From: Chryseobacterium gleum
GTDB taxonomy: Bacteria; Bacteroidota; Bacteroidia; Flavobacteriales_D; Crocinitomicaceae
Assembly (NCBI GenBank): GCA_945862165.1
Contig: CAMAXI010000007.1
Coordinates: 1-64,000 of the forward strand
Reading direction: 5' to 3'
DNA: 64,000 nucleotides
Below are positions 3,001 to 59,941 of this stretch, in pieces (position 1 is the stretch's first letter; every line of letters starts with the position of its first letter). The notes under the pieces were generated by a model. That model made no database searches and was not told the origin of the DNA. It saw nothing but the letters and a program-made list of their open reading frames with translations. The position numbers were made by a program, and so were the translations under genes.

Positions 3001-6000
3001 ACCGTTGGAGACAATCCTTCTGTTAATATTGTCAGTAATCAGATAAAATGTATTGGAACAAATTTTGATCCTATCAACTTTACTGGTTCCGCTGGAACTT
3101 CCTATGATTGGGTGAATAATACTCCTTCTATAGGTCTAGCTGTATCTGGTACTGGAAATATTCCAGCATTTGCAGGTGCAGGTGTTTCAGCACTTACTAC
3201 TTCGTTGACTTCAACTATTACTGTTACTCCACACATTGGTTCTTGTCCTGGTTCACCTAAATCATTTACATTAACACTTAATTATACAGATAATGTTGGT
3301 ATAACTTATTCAAATGTTTCATATTGTGCTGCAGATGCAAATCCAACACCAACGATAACAGGAACAACAGGCGGGATATTCTCTGCAACTCCAAGTGGTT
3401 TAGCGATAAATTCAACGACCGGAGAGATTGATATAATTTCTTCAACACAAGGAATGTTTAATGTGATGTATAGAACTACAGGTGTTTGTGCAGATACCGT
3501 AATCGTTCCTATTGGTATTAGCTTTAGTCCTGCTGTAAATACTATTTTGGGACAAACTGTTTGTACAGGTACAAGTTTCACTCCCACAATTATTTCAGGT
3601 TCTCCAGGTTCATTATTTGATTGGAAAAACTCGAATACGAATATCGGTTTAGCTGCTTCTGGAACTGGAGACATTGCGTCTTTTGTTTCCTTAAATACTT
3701 CCAATTTAGCAATTCAAGGAACGGTAACGGTAACTCCACGTGCTGGTTCATGTAAAGGGACTCCTAAGTCCTTTGACTTGAAAGTAAATCCAGTAGACGA
3801 TGCTACATTTAGCTATATTGCAGCTTCTTTTTGTTCCAATGCTTCTGATATTACACCAACAATTACAGGTACAAAAGGAGGGAACTTCTCTTCATCTCCG
3901 TCGGGTTTAAGTTTAAATCCAACTACGGGTAAAATTGCAATTTCTATATCCAAAGCCGGTAACTATAATATAACCTACCTTACAAATGGAGTTTGTCCAA
4001 AAGTGTTTTCCAATGTAGTCAAAATAAATCCGGAACCTTTAGTTAATCCGGTTAGTAATCAAATTGTTTGTCAAGACATAAACTTCAACTCGATCAATTT
4101 TAGCGGTACTACTTCTACCTTGTTTAATTGGACGAATAGTAACACGTCAATTGGTTTAGCATCCGCTGGAACAGGAAGTATTTCTTCGTTTAAAGCAACG
4201 GGTACGTCAAAAGGCGGAAGTCCTGAAACAGCCATTTTACAAGTTACACCTTCCATAGGAGTATGTCTTGGAACACCAATATCAGTAGTGTTAACGGTAA
4301 ATAGCTTTGACAATCCTTCCTTTGCTTATTCTGATAATTCTTATTGTAAATCGCAAGGAAACCCTATTCCTAAAATTACAGGAGCAACAGGCGGAAATTT
4401 TTCGGCATCTCCAATTGGCCTAGATTTAGATAATGTGAGTGGAGCTATTAATCTATCAAATTCTACATCTGGTACTTATGCAGTAACCTACACTACGAAT
4501 GGTAATTGTCCTATTGATTCAACCGTAAACATTGCTGTTGGTAATGACCCAATTGTTAATGCAATTACAGATCAAACAAAATGTGAAGGAGTTGCTTTCT
4601 CGACAATCACTTTTTCTGGAAACCCAGGGACGGTATTTGATTGGACAAACACAAATACAACAATTGGTTTAAGTGCAAGTGGTACAGGCGATATTCAAAG
4701 TTTTAATGCTACTGGAACCACGACTGGAGCGTCAGATATTTCAGGTACGATCACAGTAACTCCGAGAATAGGTTCGTGTGTTGGTACTCCAAAAACATTC
4801 AAATTAACCGTAAATGCTTTAGATAACGCTAATTTTTCATATGCAAACGCATCGTTTTGTAAAACTCAATCTAATCCTTCACCTACAATTAGTGGTTTAA
4901 CAGGGGGAACTTTTAGTTCTTTACCTGCTGGTATAGCCATGAATTCAAGTGGGGTTATTGACCTTGCTTCTTCCTTAAGTGGTACATATACAGTTAGCTA
5001 CACTACCCATGGTACTTGTCCAAATGTAACTTCTATTCCAATGTCCATAGGAAATGCACCTACTGTAAATACGGTGACAGATAAAACTGTTTGTGCTGGA
5101 AGTACGTTTACTACGATTGCTTTTAGTGGATCGCTAGGTTCTGTGTTTAATTGGACGAATGTAAATACTAGTATTGGATTAGCAGCAACTGGAACAGGTG
5201 ATATTAGTGCATTTACTGCTTTAGCTGCCGGGATGAGTACAATAACGGTAACTCCAAGTGTAGGTATTTGTATCGGTGCACCAAAAACATTCAAATTAAC
5301 AGTGAACCCGCTCCAAACTACGACTATAGCTTATGCACAAACTTCTTATTGTCAAAATCAAGTTAATCCTTCACCAGCTATTTCTGGTCCTACAGGAGGA
5401 AGTTTTTCTGCTTTCCCATTCGGTCTATCCGTTAATCCATCGAATGGAATAATTGATTTAGCTACTTCCAATCCTGGAAATTATAAAGTAACATACGCTA
5501 TTAATGGCGTTGCATGTGCTTCCAATTCTACAACACAAGTTGCTATCGGAGATAATCCAACTGTGAATGCAATTTCTTCGCAATCTGTTTGTAATGATGT
5601 AAACTTTAATACAATTCTATTTACGGGAAATACTGGAACGCAATTTTCTTGGGTGAATTCAAACACTGCGATTGGATTAGCAGGTTCTGGATCTGGAAAT
5701 ATTGCCTCGTTTACAGGTACAAATACTACGAAAAACATAATTTCAGGAATACTTACCGTAACTCCTTCGATTGGTACGTGTGTTGGAACAGCGAAAACGT
5801 TTATGTTGAGTGTAAAACCATCCGACGATGCTTCTTTTAGTTATGCATCTAATAAATATTGTGCGGACGATAACAATCCATCCCCAACAATTTTAGGTAC
5901 AACAGGTGGTAAGTTCACAGCTAATAACGCGGGTATTAGTTTAAATAATGGTTCCGGTAAAATCACATTGGGAACTTCTACTCCTGGAACATATAATATT

Positions 6001-55509: not shown

Positions 55510-58311
55510 TTAATGAGCATCTAACCAATTATCCGCTATTTTCACTTCTACTTCCATCGGAACAACCAGTTCGATAGCCGATTCCATGGCTTCTTGTACT
55601 AATTTTCGCATCAAATCTTGTTCCGAAATGTGTACATCAAACACCAACTCATCGTGTACTTGTAACAATAATTTAGATTGTACTTTTTGTTCTTGCATCG
55701 CTTTGTCAACTGCAATCATGGCAAGTTTTATGATATCTGCTGCAGAACCTTGAATCGGTGCATTAATTGCATTTCGTTCGGCATAACCACGTACAATCGC
55801 ATTCGCAGAATTAATATCTGGAAGGTATCTTCTACGTTTCATGATGGTTTCTACATAGCCCAATTCCCGAGCATCGTTTACCAAACCATCCATGAAGGAT
55901 TTTATGGTGCCAAATTGTTCGAAATAACGATCAATAATGGATTTTGCTTCGGTTCTAGAAATTCCTAAATTTTGCGCCAATCCAAATGGACCTTGTCCAT
56001 ACATAATTCCAAAGTTTACCGCTTTCGCAGCACTACGTTGGTCTTTAGTTACTTCTTCCAACGGAACATGAAATACATTTGCTGCCGTTGCTGTGTGAAT
56101 GTCTATTCCTTTTTGAAATGCGTCAATCATTCCAGGGTCTTTACTCAAGGCTGCAATGATACGTAATTCAATTTGAGAATAATCCGCCGCCATGATTTTG
56201 AATTCTGGTCCACGTGAAATAAAAGTCTTACGAATTTCTTTTCCTTTTTGGGTGCGAATTGGAATATTTTGCAAATTCGGATTATTGGAACTCAAACGTC
56301 CTGTTGCTGTAACCGTTTGCATGTAACTCGTGTGTACACGGTGATCGTTTGGATTCAACAACGTAGGAAGCGGATCTACGTAGGTTCCTTTTAGTTTTTT
56401 ATTTTGACGGTATTCTAAAATTTTCCCTATGATTGGGTGATCGTTACGGTATTGTTCCAAAGCATCCTCCGAAGTTTGGTATTGTCCTGTTTTGGTTTTC
56501 TTTGCTTTCGCATTGATTTTCATTTTTTCAAACAAGACTTCTCCCAATTGTTTCGGAGAATCTAAGTTGAAGTCTTCCCCAGAAATTTCTTTGATTTCTT
56601 TTTCCAGACTAATCGAGTCCTCCTCTAAACGTAAGGATAATGTTTTTAACCCTTCCACATCAATTGCAATTCCTTCTCGTTCCATGCGTTGAATGACATT
56701 AACCAAAGGCATTTCCATGGTGTGGAATAAATCTTTTAAATGTTCTTTTTGAATTTGGGGTGCTAAAATTTGATATAGTTGAAAGGTAATATCTGCGTCT
56801 TCACATGCATAATCGGAAACTTGCTTTGGATCTAAATCGCGCATGTTCCCCTGATTTTTTCCTTTTTTACCAATCAATTCGGTAATAGAAACCGGTTTAT
56901 ATTGTAAATAGTATTCCGCCAAAAAGTCCATGCTTTGTTTGGATTCAGGCTGAATTAAATAATGTGCAATCATCGTATCAAATAAGGATCCGCCAACCGC
57001 TATACCATAATTCTCCAAGACTTGTAAGTCGTACTTTAGGTTATGACCAATTTTTTCAATGGATTCATTTTCGAAGAAAGGCTTGAAGGAATCTACGATT
57101 AGTTGTGCTTCTTGTTGGTTTTCTGGGAGTGCGACATAAAATGCTTCCCGTTGATTGAATGAAAACGACATGCCTACCAACGCAGCGAGTAAAGCATCCA
57201 CAGCAGTTGTTTCTGTGTCAAAACAAACGGATGTTTGCTTTAATAACAATTCCAATAATTCTGCGCGTTCTTCGGAATTGGTGATTAAATGGTAATTCGG
57301 TTTTTCCGTAGCAATCGTTTTTAATTCAGAAGTTTGAACCGGAGTTTGAATTTCCAACAAACTTTGTGTTCCAAATAAATCAAATTGTCCTGTTTCAGTT
57401 ACCGGAGCAGTAACAGTTATTTCTTCTCCGATAACGCGTTTTGCCAACGTTCTAAATTCTAATTCCGTAAATACTTCCATGACCTTTTTTGCATCTGGTT
57501 CACACATAATGAGGTGTTCTGGATCAAAAGGTACATCGACATCCAGGATAATCGTTGCTAATTGTTTGGATAAACGACCTTGGTCGGCGAACTCAATTAC
57601 GTTTTCGCGCATTTTTCCTTTGAGTTGGTCCGCATTGGTGATGATGTTTTCCAAGGAACCATATTCTTGGATTAATTTTTTAGAAGTCTTTTCTCCAATT
57701 CCAGGTATTCCAGGAATATTATCGGAAGCGTCTCCCCATAATCCAAGGATGTCAATGACTTTTAAGGGATGGTCGACCTCAAATTTTTCACATACTTCTT
57801 TTATTCCCATAATTGAAGCTGGATCACCACCACGACCAGGTTTGTAAATAAATATTTTTTCTGATACCAACTGACCAAAATCCTTATCCGGAGTCATCAT
57901 GTAGGTATAATACCCTTCTTTTTCTGCTACTTTTGCTAAGGTTCCAATGACATCATCTGCTTCAAATCCCGATTTCAATAAAATAGGAATGTTAAATGCT
58001 TCAATGATTTTTTTGATTGGATCAATCATCGCACGCAAATCTTCCGGCATTTCCTGACGATTCGCTTTATACGCTGCAAAGTCTTCCTGACGATTCGTTG
58101 CCCCACCAGGTGCGTCAAACACCACCGCTAAATGTGTTGGTTGCTCTTTTTTAATTACATCAATCAGTGCATTTGTAAAACCAAAAGCAGCAGACGTATT
58201 TTGTCCTTTGGAATTCACACGTGGATTCTTCGCAAACGCAAAATACGCTCTGTAAATCAATGCAAAAGCATCTAATAGGAATAATTTTTTATCGTGTACT
58301 GGAGTAATCAT
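55510..58311 (-). CDS. polA: DNA polymerase I
   Basis: The 933-residue enzyme has three domains. The first is a 5' nuclease (FLLDAFALIYRAYFAF, then GDASDNIPGIPGIGEKT). The second is a 3'-5' exonuclease with the DxE carboxylates (CFDTETTAVDALL) and a HNLKYDLQVL motif, so proofreading looks intact. The third is the polymerase (MAADYSQIELRIIAAL, KAVNFGIMYGQGP, LQVHDELVFDV). It serves Okazaki fragment maturation and repair. Its first 13 codons and leader recur at 59667-59744, beyond the DUF4143 gene inserted upstream. The gene itself is complete. Confidence 0.97.
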   Translation of the reverse strand: MITPVHDKKLFLLDAFALIYRAYFAFAKNPRVNSKGQNTSAAFGFTNALIDVIKKEQPTHLAVVFDAPGGATNRQEDFAAYKANRQEMPEDLRAMIDPIKKIIEAFNIPILLKSGFEADDVIGTLAKVAEKEGYYTYMMTPDKDFGQLVSEKIFIYKPGRGGDPASIMGIKEVCEKFEVDHPLKVIDILGLWGDASDNIPGIPGIGEKTSKKLIQEYGSLENIITNADQLKGKMRENVIEFADQGRLSKQLATIILDVDVPFDPEHLIMCEPDAKKVMEVFTELEFRTLAKRVIGEEITVTAPVTETGQFDLFGTQSLLEIQTPVQTSELKTIATEKPNYHLITNSEERAELLELLLKQTSVCFDTETTAVDALLAALVGMSFSFNQREAFYVALPENQQEAQLIVDSFKPFFENESIEKIGHNLKYDLQVLENYGIAVGGSLFDTMIAHYLIQPESKQSMDFLAEYYLQYKPVSITELIGKKGKNQGNMRDLDPKQVSDYACEDADITFQLYQILAPQIQKEHLKDLFHTMEMPLVNVIQRMEREGIAIDVEGLKTLSLRLEEDSISLEKEIKEISGEDFNLDSPKQLGEVLFEKMKINAKAKKTKTGQYQTSEDALEQYRNDHPIIGKILEYRQNKKLKGTYVDPLPTLLNPNDHRVHTSYMQTVTATGRLSSNNPNLQNIPIRTQKGKEIRKTFISRGPEFKIMAADYSQIELRIIAALSKDPGMIDAFQKGIDIHTATAANVFHVPLEEVTKDQRSAAKAVNFGIMYGQGPFGLAQNLGISRTEAKSIIDRYFEQFGTIKSFMDGLVNDARELGYVETIMKRRRYLPDINSANAIVRGYAERNAINAPIQGSAADIIKLAMIAVDKAMQEQKVQSKLLLQVHDELVFDVHISEQDLMRKLVQEAMESAIELVVPMEVEVKIADNWLDAH

Positions 58312-58370
58312 TTTGGGAATTATGAATTGTTGTTTTATGGATTATGATTTTCTATAACAAATATACAGCT

Positions 58371-59528
58371 TTAACGGGCAAATTCATGCCAAGGAATCAT
58401 TTCACAATTTTGTCTTACATAATGCTCGTTTCCTGTATAAATCATTTTTTTGACCACTATTCTATTTTCCGCTTTTTTTTCAAAGTAATCCAAACCTTTC
58501 ATGTGTTTACTCATGATTGTTGCGGTCGACTTTATTTCATGGGTGATTAACTTTTGATTTTCGGAATAAACTAAATCGATTTCGTTGCCGACTGAATCCC
58601 TCCAAAACCAGCTATCAACGACTTGATTCTTATGATACATACGTTTTATGTGTTCTGAAATCATCATATTTTCAAATAATGCTCCTTTTATTGAACTAGC
58701 TAGCAGGTAATCATAATCGTTTATTCCTAACAAATGGCACAATAAGCCGGTATCGTAAAAATAAATTTTAGGAGATTTTACCAATCGTTTACTGAAATTT
58801 TCAAAATAGGGTTGTAAGGTAAAAACGATGTAACTACTTTCTAAAATAGACAACCAAGATTTTGCCGTTGGTTGGGAAATCCCACAAGCATTTGCAAGTT
58901 CATTGAGGTTGAGTAGTTGTCCTGCGCGGGCTGCTAATAAGGAAAAGTATTTTTTAAATAATGCTAAATTTTTTACTTCTAATAGTTCTGTTAAATCACG
59001 TTGTACGTATGTTTCAATGTAATTGGCATAAAATTTCGAAGAGTTGATTCCACGACTGTAAATAGCTGGATAAAATCCTTTTAACATGCAATTTATATAG
59101 TCTGTTTCTAATAAATTCTCACTTTTTAACTCTTGAAAATCAAAAGGAAATAATCGAAATAATGCTACTCTACCAGCTAAACTTTGTGTAATATTTTGCA
59201 TCAAATGGAAGTTTTGAGAGCCGGACAATATATAGTGTCCCATGCTGTTTTCTTCATCTACCTTCGTTTGTAAATATGAAAATAACGTGGGCACGCGTTG
59301 GGCTTCATCAATAATTGTCTTTCCAGAATAGCGCTTTAAAAATCCATTAGGATCCTCCAATGCAAACTCACGTTGATCTAGATTTTCTAAATTCACATAT
59401 TCGTATTCAGAAAATGTGTTTTTTAAAAAAGTCGTTTTCCCAGATTGTCGAGGTCCTGTGACTGCTATAACAAGATATTTATCGATTAATTCACGGATAC
59501 TTTCTAGTATGTTTCGTTGCAATTTCAT
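58371..59528 (-). CDS. AAA ATPase with DUF4143 domain
   Basis: Starting at ATG 59528 (MKLQRNILESIRELID), the 385-residue protein has Walker A GPRQSGKT (residues 25-32), Walker B TIIDEAQ (71-77) and a sensor-like YILSGSQNF. A DUF4143 region then leads to a C-terminal segment with NEIDLVYSENQKLITHEIKS, which looks like a PD-(D/E)XK-type acidic patch. The family is widespread and often mobile; its function is unclear. The gene lies between polA and a copy of the polA 5' end, and its promoter region holds four 22-bp repeats. Confidence 0.88.
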   Translation of the reverse strand: MKLQRNILESIRELIDKYLVIAVTGPRQSGKTTFLKNTFSEYEYVNLENLDQREFALEDPNGFLKRYSGKTIIDEAQRVPTLFSYLQTKVDEENSMGHYILSGSQNFHLMQNITQSLAGRVALFRLFPFDFQELKSENLLETDYINCMLKGFYPAIYSRGINSSKFYANYIETYVQRDLTELLEVKNLALFKKYFSLLAARAGQLLNLNELANACGISQPTAKSWLSILESSYIVFTLQPYFENFSKRLVKSPKIYFYDTGLLCHLLGINDYDYLLASSIKGALFENMMISEHIKRMYHKNQVVDSWFWRDSVGNEIDLVYSENQKLITHEIKSTATIMSKHMKGLDYFEKKAENRIVVKKMIYTGNEHYVRQNCEMIPWHEFAR

Positions 59529-59532
59529 ATAA

Positions 59533-59563
59533 CAATAGTACGACTTATTTTGAAAATACACAA
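59533..59563 (-). promoter_or_regulatory. Candidate promoter of the DUF4143 ATPase gene
   Basis: On the minus strand TTG (59561-59563), a 20-bp spacer and TACTATTG (59533-59540) match the local promoter pattern with one mismatch. The first 22-bp repeat box sits in the spacer, the usual place for a repressor. The start would fall close to the ATG. Confidence 0.4.
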
Positions 59564-59634
59564 GTTGTATTTTGAAATTACATGCATTCTATTTTGAAAA
59601 TACACAAGTTTCATTTTGAAATTGCGCGTTTTTT
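59547..59634. repeat. Four tandem 22-bp repeats beginning ATTTTGAAA
   Basis: ATTTTGAAA starts at 59547, 59569, 59591 and 59613, exactly 22 bp apart. Repeats 1 and 3 agree at 20 of 22 bases; repeats 2 and 4 share ATTTTGAAATT. The array begins 19 bp upstream of the DUF4143 gene's ATG. Confidence 0.85.
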
Positions 59635-59666
59635 TAAAGTTGTTACTTAAATCAATTTAAAAGTAC

Positions 59667-59744
59667 CTAATAGAAATAATTTTTTATCGTGAACTGGAGT
59701 AATCATTTATATAGTTATGAGTTATAAATTATGGATTATGATTT
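59667..59744 (-). repeat. Duplicate of the polA 5' end and leader
   Basis: Bases 59667-59708 match 58272-58313 at 40 of 42 positions, including the ATG and first 13 codons of polA (MITPVHDKKLFLL). The homology resumes with a perfect ATGGATTATGATTT at 59731 (58337 in the original), colinear within one base. The copied frame reaches a stop after a few more codons, so this is not a working gene. Confidence 0.88.
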
Positions 59745-59818
59745 GATTGAATCATACGCAGCGGGAAGCAAGTGTTTTGGTTCGATTTAGTTTACTTTTC
59801 ATTTATTTTCTGTTACTT

Positions 59819-59941
59819 TTCAAAATTGTCATCCCCCTCGGTCCCCCTTCAAAGGGGGAAGCAGTGTTTTGCATCAAAATCACGCCTTCGCTCGTCACTT
59901 CATCACTTCGTCACTTCGGTCCCTGAGGTTCTCAAAGGGAC
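59819..59941. repeat. GC-richer structured intergenic repeat downstream of cysS
   Basis: The ~400-bp gap between the ATPase and cysS ends in a stretch with CCCCCTT/AAGGGGG (59843-59858) and direct CACTTC(A/G)T copies (59896-59918). A hairpin GTCCCTGAG/CTC-AA-AGGGAC (59919-59941) lies against the cysS stop. It looks like a dispersed genomic repeat and lacks a U-tract. Confidence 0.45.

Follow-up and report, generated by a model that had tools for sequence, protein, structure and literature searches.

The window, by which we mean the whole stretch of 64,000 nucleotides that was analysed, contains an insertion of ~1.3 kb between the chromosomal genes cysS and polA, made up of a gene for a DUF4143/AAA_14 ATPase and an array of direct repeats, the units of which are located 19-100 bp before the start of that gene. 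The features of the locus are as follows.

58240..58350, no strand assigned: functional copy, at the start of polA, of the region that is duplicated beyond the array (empty-site comparison)
58371..59528, minus strand: DUF4143/AAA_14 ATPase gene, 385 aa, ATG at 59528; PADLOC candidate defence family PDC-S01
58530..58673, minus strand: codons for E286...E316, D318...E331-x-K333, a nuclease motif of PD-(D/E)XK type (no variation in 46 homologues; structure model)
58749..58967, minus strand: codons of the winged helix-turn-helix, residues 188-260 (predicted structure)
58869..58877, minus strand: codons of the specificity residues S218-Q219-P220, which covary with half-site bases 11-13 (here C-A-A)
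59533..59540, minus strand: candidate -7 element TACTATTG, of the Bacteroidota TAnnTTTG type with one mismatch
59547..59562, minus strand: half-site 1, promoter-proximal, TGTGTATTTTCAAAAT (sequence; EM motif position -34), between the candidate -33 and -7 elements
59561..59563, minus strand: candidate -33 TTG, 20 nt upstream of the -7 element, proposed from inspection of the sequence
59569..59584, minus strand: half-site 2, CATGTAATTTCAAAAT (sequence and EM motif), 22 bp upstream of half-site 1
59591..59606, minus strand: half-site 3, TGTGTATTTTCAAAAT (sequence and EM motif)
59613..59628, minus strand: half-site 4, distal, CGCGCAATTTCAAAAT (sequence and EM motif)
59648..59759, no strand assigned: degenerate second copy (~112 bp) of the polA 5' region, located beyond the array; an insertion footprint outside the operator

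The gene product matches the PADLOC profile of PDC-S01 over residues 3-381 (E=1e-100) and is thus, by profile and as a whole protein, a member of this candidate defence family. The Pfam domains AAA_14 (residues 20-134) and DUF4143 (residues 176-334) both score over their cut-offs, and the AlphaFold model (pLDDT 91.9) predicts an AAA domain, a winged helix-turn-helix (wHTH) at residues 188-260 and a PD-(D/E)XK-type domain. The wHTH is predicted to consist of helices at 188-200 and 208-215, a recognition helix at 219-231 and wing strands at 235-238 and 254-257 with a basic loop; N244 and K254 are near-invariant among homologues, while G30, K31, D74 and E75 (Walker A/B), R120, E286, E316, D318, E331 and K333 are invariant in 46 homologues. 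A sequence search against solved structures returned no match for the ATPase, and a fold search found distant AAA+/wHTH proteins alone, the best being the Pyrococcus abyssi Walker ATPase 2qen (TM ~0.42), with distant fold similarity to the Cdc6/Orc1 and RuvB AAA+ proteins. The gene had no match among 72,556 plasmid records, and few relatives (seven) were found on viral contigs.

On the plus strand, the 9-mer ATTTTGAAA starts at 59547, 59569, 59591 and 59613, which bears out the original prediction of four boxes at an exact spacing of 22 bp upstream of the DUF4143 ATPase; Tandem Repeats Finder likewise reports the array as period 22, 3.5 copies, score 96. As a signal by itself the 9-mer is unremarkable, with 14 matches in the AT-rich window versus 6.5 expected from dinucleotide shuffling, and because it is so common the weight of the evidence lies on the phasing. 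The pattern TTTCAAAAT-N11-15-TTTCAAAAT occurs three times in the 2.89-Mb genome, every time within this array, and its reversed-pattern control gives no match in the same genome; since the phased pattern is confined to this one promoter, a genome-wide regulon was ruled out. The boxes had also been described as an alternating A-B-A-B pattern with a 44-bp super-repeat. Such a repeat is present in this genome as a local 44-bp near-duplication inside the array (34-mer copies 94% identical), which accounts for the alternating look, but it is missing from orthologues of 79-90% identity and was rejected as a functional pattern. Similarly, the proposed location of all boxes on one face of the DNA is approximately correct at 22 bp, but a strict arrangement of this kind is not required, because relatives use a spacing of either 22 or 23 bp and 23 bp turns the sites by ~70 degrees per unit.

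Every box belongs to a half-site of 16 bp, TGTGTAATTTCAAAAT on the strand of the gene, and the conserved unit measures ~14-16 bp rather than 9 bp; because the ATPase gene lies on the minus strand, the functional unit reads TGTGTATTTTCAAAAT or CATGTAATTTCAAAAT. The first box does fall between plausible -33 and -7 elements, as had been suggested. Orthologues keep TACTATTG or TATTATTG at the same place as the candidate -7 element, other members have an exact TAnnTTTG, and in many Bacteroidota members a TAnnTTTG-like -7 element lies just downstream of the last half-site. TAnnTTTG was found in the last 60 bp of 104/192 DUF4143 upstream regions versus 42/152 control genes. The placement of half-site 1 between the two candidate elements favours repression as its presumed effect.

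Phased repeats were also found where orthologous upstream regions were searched: orthologues with 57-90% identity, several of them in different gene neighbourhoods, keep the TGTAATTTCAAAAT array. A three-box phased version was present in 8 of the 119 genomes of the order, with no match to the three-box reversed-pattern control in the same 119 genomes; seven of these eight arrays stand immediately upstream of an ATPase with 57-100% identity, and the eighth is an orphan at the cysS-polA interval. Among 21 loci, the core is conserved and the spacer varies (the search pattern fixed the inner positions of the core and left the flanking ones free), the spacing is 22 bp in some genomes and 23 bp in others, and the number of units ranges from 3 to ~9.

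In a wider sample of 80 named relatives from Bacteroidota, Proteobacteria classes, Nitrospirae, Spirochaetes, Geobacter, Verrucomicrobia and others, repeats were far more frequent upstream than downstream of the same DUF4143 genes (p=3e-9), and the motif search returned one half-site family, TnTGyAATTTnnnAAT. Convergent pairs of half-sites at an offset of exactly 19 bp were found in 40/98 genes (5 in the next bin) and direct repeats at 22/23 bp in 28/98 genes, while shuffled sequences never gave more than one gene at either fixed offset; in GC-rich genomes the element is present as an AT-rich palindrome. Since this half-site family is common across phyla, the array in the window can be regarded as a tandem version of a family-wide operator half-site. 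Most relatives have one inverted pair, 35 bp overall, and we infer that the inverted arrangement is ancestral. On the tree, the arrangement requires approximately four changes versus a mean of 24 after shuffling, although one of these changes (L024) may be a misclassification. The clade of the window has direct 22/23-bp arrays in forward orientation, a second clade has direct arrays in reverse orientation, and other DUF4143 subfamilies have private repeats of their own.

The 2.9-Mb genome contains 19 DUF4143 genes (L001-L019), most of which have their own, differing direct or inverted repeat within ~130 bp of the start, the exceptions without a clear upstream repeat being L011, L013 and L016. 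The best self-repeat score had a median of 25 in 87 DUF4143 upstream regions versus 10 in 152 control upstream regions of the same genome (Mann-Whitney p=4e-25), and 63/87 of the former (12/18 in this genome alone) versus 8/152 of the latter exceeded the 95th percentile of the controls. For direct repeats, the best spacings are concentrated at 22 bp in the subfamily of the window and at 32-33 bp in another subfamily. Several paralogues of this genome, such as L010, have direct repeats 32-33 bp apart, which is about three helical turns and represents a second geometry. The paralogue L011 (G000:C2:133440), located directly after an rlmN-like gene, has a degenerate Walker A motif (GTRGVQKF) and is probably a diverged or non-functional copy.

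The connection between the array and the protein comes from residue-base covariation. Mutual information was calculated between 231 protein columns and 16 half-site positions, i.e., ~3,700 residue-base pairs, and the four top pairs, residue 219 with base 11 (0.52), 218 with base 13 (0.36), 220 with base 12 (0.33) and 220 with base 13 (0.26), all fall at the start of the recognition helix (residues 218-220), the best value elsewhere being 0.22. Q219 is paired with C in 25/28 cases, H219 with G in 27/28, V219 with T in 11/11 and D218 with G13 in 16/16, while K220 is paired with G in 15/16 cases and, at base 13, in 16/16; the protein of the window (S-Q-P) and its sites (C-A-A) conform to this pairing. 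A domain-wide rank test that compared the wHTH with all other columns did not reach significance (p=0.10), because the signal is confined to three residues; this led to further tests on held-out genes and on independent pairs. The held-out set comprised 50 new genes with a median identity of 50% to the training set, whose sites were located with bases 11-13 masked; their half-sites gave V219-T in 8/8, D218-G in 6/6, K220-G in 8/10 and H219-G in 10/14 cases. For the 25 non-redundant held-out genes, 73/114 bases (64%) were predicted correctly versus a mean of 40 and a maximum of 61 in 2,000 permutations (p=5e-4), so that the covariation holds on held-out genes partly but significantly. Among 42 phylogenetically independent pairs, base 11 changed in 11/19 pairs in which residue 219 had changed and in 1/23 in which it had not; the uncorrected p of 1.6e-4 is the best of 1,125 column-position tests and by itself fails a full Bonferroni correction. 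The second best of these tests was residue 220 with base 13, and that of residue 218 with base 13 was by itself not significant (p=0.10). S219 reads C or T depending on context. Imperfect as it is, the residue-base pairing appears close to a code, in which three residues would predict three bases of the protein's own promoter site across several phyla.

Given that residues 218-220 covary with half-site bases 11-13, the array is very probably the operator of the adjacent PDC-S01 gene, overlapping the gene's own promoter and read by the wHTH in its own product. The suggestion that the boxes form an operator, possibly for the ATPase itself, is therefore strongly supported on comparative grounds, both by the boxes following orthologues into new neighbourhoods and by the helix-base covariation, and so is the predicted binding of the ATPase to the array. 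Physical binding, repression, cooperativity and a link to phage sensing or defence are steps that we infer, and they can be combined into the following model: (i) each 16-bp TnTGyAATTTnnnAAT unit would be the half-site of one wHTH, with residues 218-220 at the start of the recognition helix contacting bases 11-13; (ii) in most relatives, the inverted half-site pair of 35 bp would accommodate a two-fold dimer, while in the clade of the window one type of half-site, repeated head to tail every 22 or 23 bp, would place protomers side by side over the promoter; (iii) protein bound at the promoter-proximal site, which lies between the -33 and -7 elements, would keep RNA polymerase out and the level of a potentially harmful ATPase-nuclease low; and (iv) the additional upstream units would raise local occupancy. 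With a site private to each paralogue, many of them (19 here) could be carried without cross-talk, which would explain how they coexist without cross-regulation. Several observations stand against this model: arrays of ~9 units exceed the needs of simple repression, some members of the family, such as L013 and L016 of the same genome, have no clear repeat, orphan arrays exist in two relatives, and the code is imperfect.

Other explanations of the array differ in how well they accommodate these data. Its position at a promoter would suit the operator of a separate host regulator, since many operators serve trans-acting regulators; however, the repeats differ between paralogues of one genome and are shared by orthologues across genera and neighbourhoods, half-site bases covary with the recognition helix of the ATPase itself, and no other gene travels with the array, which makes a regulator other than the ATPase improbable. 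We give practically no credence to an origin of the repeats by chance or by neutral tandem duplication within an AT-rich intergenic region: the sequence is indeed AT-rich and includes the 44-bp near-duplication, but the conserved core with variable spacers over 21 loci, the lack of any match to the reversed-pattern controls, the AT-rich palindrome in GC-rich genomes and the covariation with protein residues refute a chance tandem duplication. More can be said for an iteron-like platform on which the ATPase would assemble as a head-to-tail polymer and which would do more than repress, for example keep the nuclease sequestered, activate it or sense its displacement during infection. The direct 22/23-bp spacing with 3 to ~9 units, the distant fold similarity to Cdc6/Orc1 and RuvB and the invariance of R120, the Walker motifs and the nuclease motif are consistent with such a platform, which we consider possible but rather unlikely; on the other hand, most relatives manage with one inverted pair, so that polymerisation is not a requirement of the family. 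Slightly more speculative still is a scheme in which the ATPase-nuclease would assemble head to tail on its private array, be quiet there and hold expression of its gene down; under phage attack, its release or an ATP-driven reassembly would both lift the repression of the gene and set the nuclease free, the array serving as both sensor and repressor site.

The original prediction had also considered a recognition array for the movement of the element, and the history of the locus bears on this. The ~1.3-kb insertion with its ~112-bp duplication of the polA 5' region has an empty counterpart in a relative whose site is undivided (L118 in G006), and two further relatives keep orphan arrays in the cysS-polA interval, one of three units (L117, ~3951-4039, in G004) and one of five (L116, ~3864-4020, in G005), with no ATPase gene detectable by tblastn in either interval, which means that arrays can outlast the gene for a time. 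Together with the invariant PD-(D/E)XK motif, these features could point to the array being the end of a mobile element, or a nuclease target, mobilised by the ATPase-nuclease. But the phased array is found on the promoter side of the inserted unit only, where it overlaps the promoter elements, and the opposite end has no matching signal; motifs of a transposase or integrase were not identified, the units keep the half-site predicted from the recognition helix, and most relatives have a compact inverted operator. In addition, a degenerate polA 5' copy precedes a RhuM-like gene downstream of the ATPase in another relative (L022 in G007). Because a comparable remnant accompanies that unrelated insertion, the ~112-bp duplication can be taken as a property of the site, and the data suggest a hotspot for insertions, with long target duplications, in the cysS-polA interval. 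By inspection, same-genus copies often have common upstream flanks, which suggests vertical inheritance. The array as a movement signal is hence not supported and is highly doubtful, and an operator read by the ATPase is the interpretation that we retain.

The array resembles in its arrangement the sites of the iteron-binding plasmid initiators RepE, pi and TrfA, which are wHTH proteins with direct repeats ~22 bp apart beside their own gene and which use an inverted version of the half-site for autoregulation. Both have direct repeats of ~22 bp beside the gene of the binding protein (binding being predicted here), but the ATPase array is unlike iterons in its chromosomal location and in the AAA+ and nuclease domains of the protein, and the likeness is one of arrangement, with no sequence relation claimed. 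BrickBuilt repeats of Porphyromonas (22-23 bp) were also considered for comparison. Control of its own promoter by a wHTH protein is of a kind already known: the type IV antitoxin AbiEi, which has a wHTH and belongs to a phage-defence locus, binds to repeats in the promoter from which it is expressed and acts there as a repressor (PMC3985639). AbiEi is like the predicted ATPase in being a wHTH protein of a defence locus with repeats at its own promoter, but it is a separate antitoxin in a two-gene operon with inverted repeats, whereas here the DNA-binding domain is inside an ATPase-nuclease and the 22-bp repeats are direct. WYL/HTH regulators of defence islands (BrxR/CapW, CapR) and restriction-modification C proteins are likewise dedicated factors that control the transcription of a costly defence gene locally (PMC12255303); these are encoded by separate genes, whereas here the effector carries its own regulator domain. 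Three aspects appear to be new: that the carrier is an ATPase-nuclease, that the repeats are direct, and that the recognition code extends across phyla.

According to passages of PMC12988326, which reports tens of thousands of PDC-S01 genes, the family ranks fourth in frequency among (putative) defence systems of prokaryotes and is unvalidated, and the passages of PMC12988326 and PMC4406477 that were searched describe no operator, autoregulation or specificity code for PDC-S01/DUF4143. Its genes are often present in many copies per genome, and an operator code is a testable property: the code would predict that a protein with residues DSK instead of SQP at positions 218-220 prefers TTTCGGAAT over TTTCAAAAT. 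The array and its relatives provide ready substrates for biochemistry and structure determination and a natural set for the study of winged-helix DNA recognition, in which evolution would have replaced one inverted pair by head-to-tail arrays of a related half-site.

Beyond the array, a dispersed GC-rich repeat around CTTCCCCCTTTGAAGGGGGACCGAGGGGGATGAC is located at 59820-59880 and in intergenic regions of the relatives L116, L117 and L119, and it is possibly a MITE-like element of this genus.
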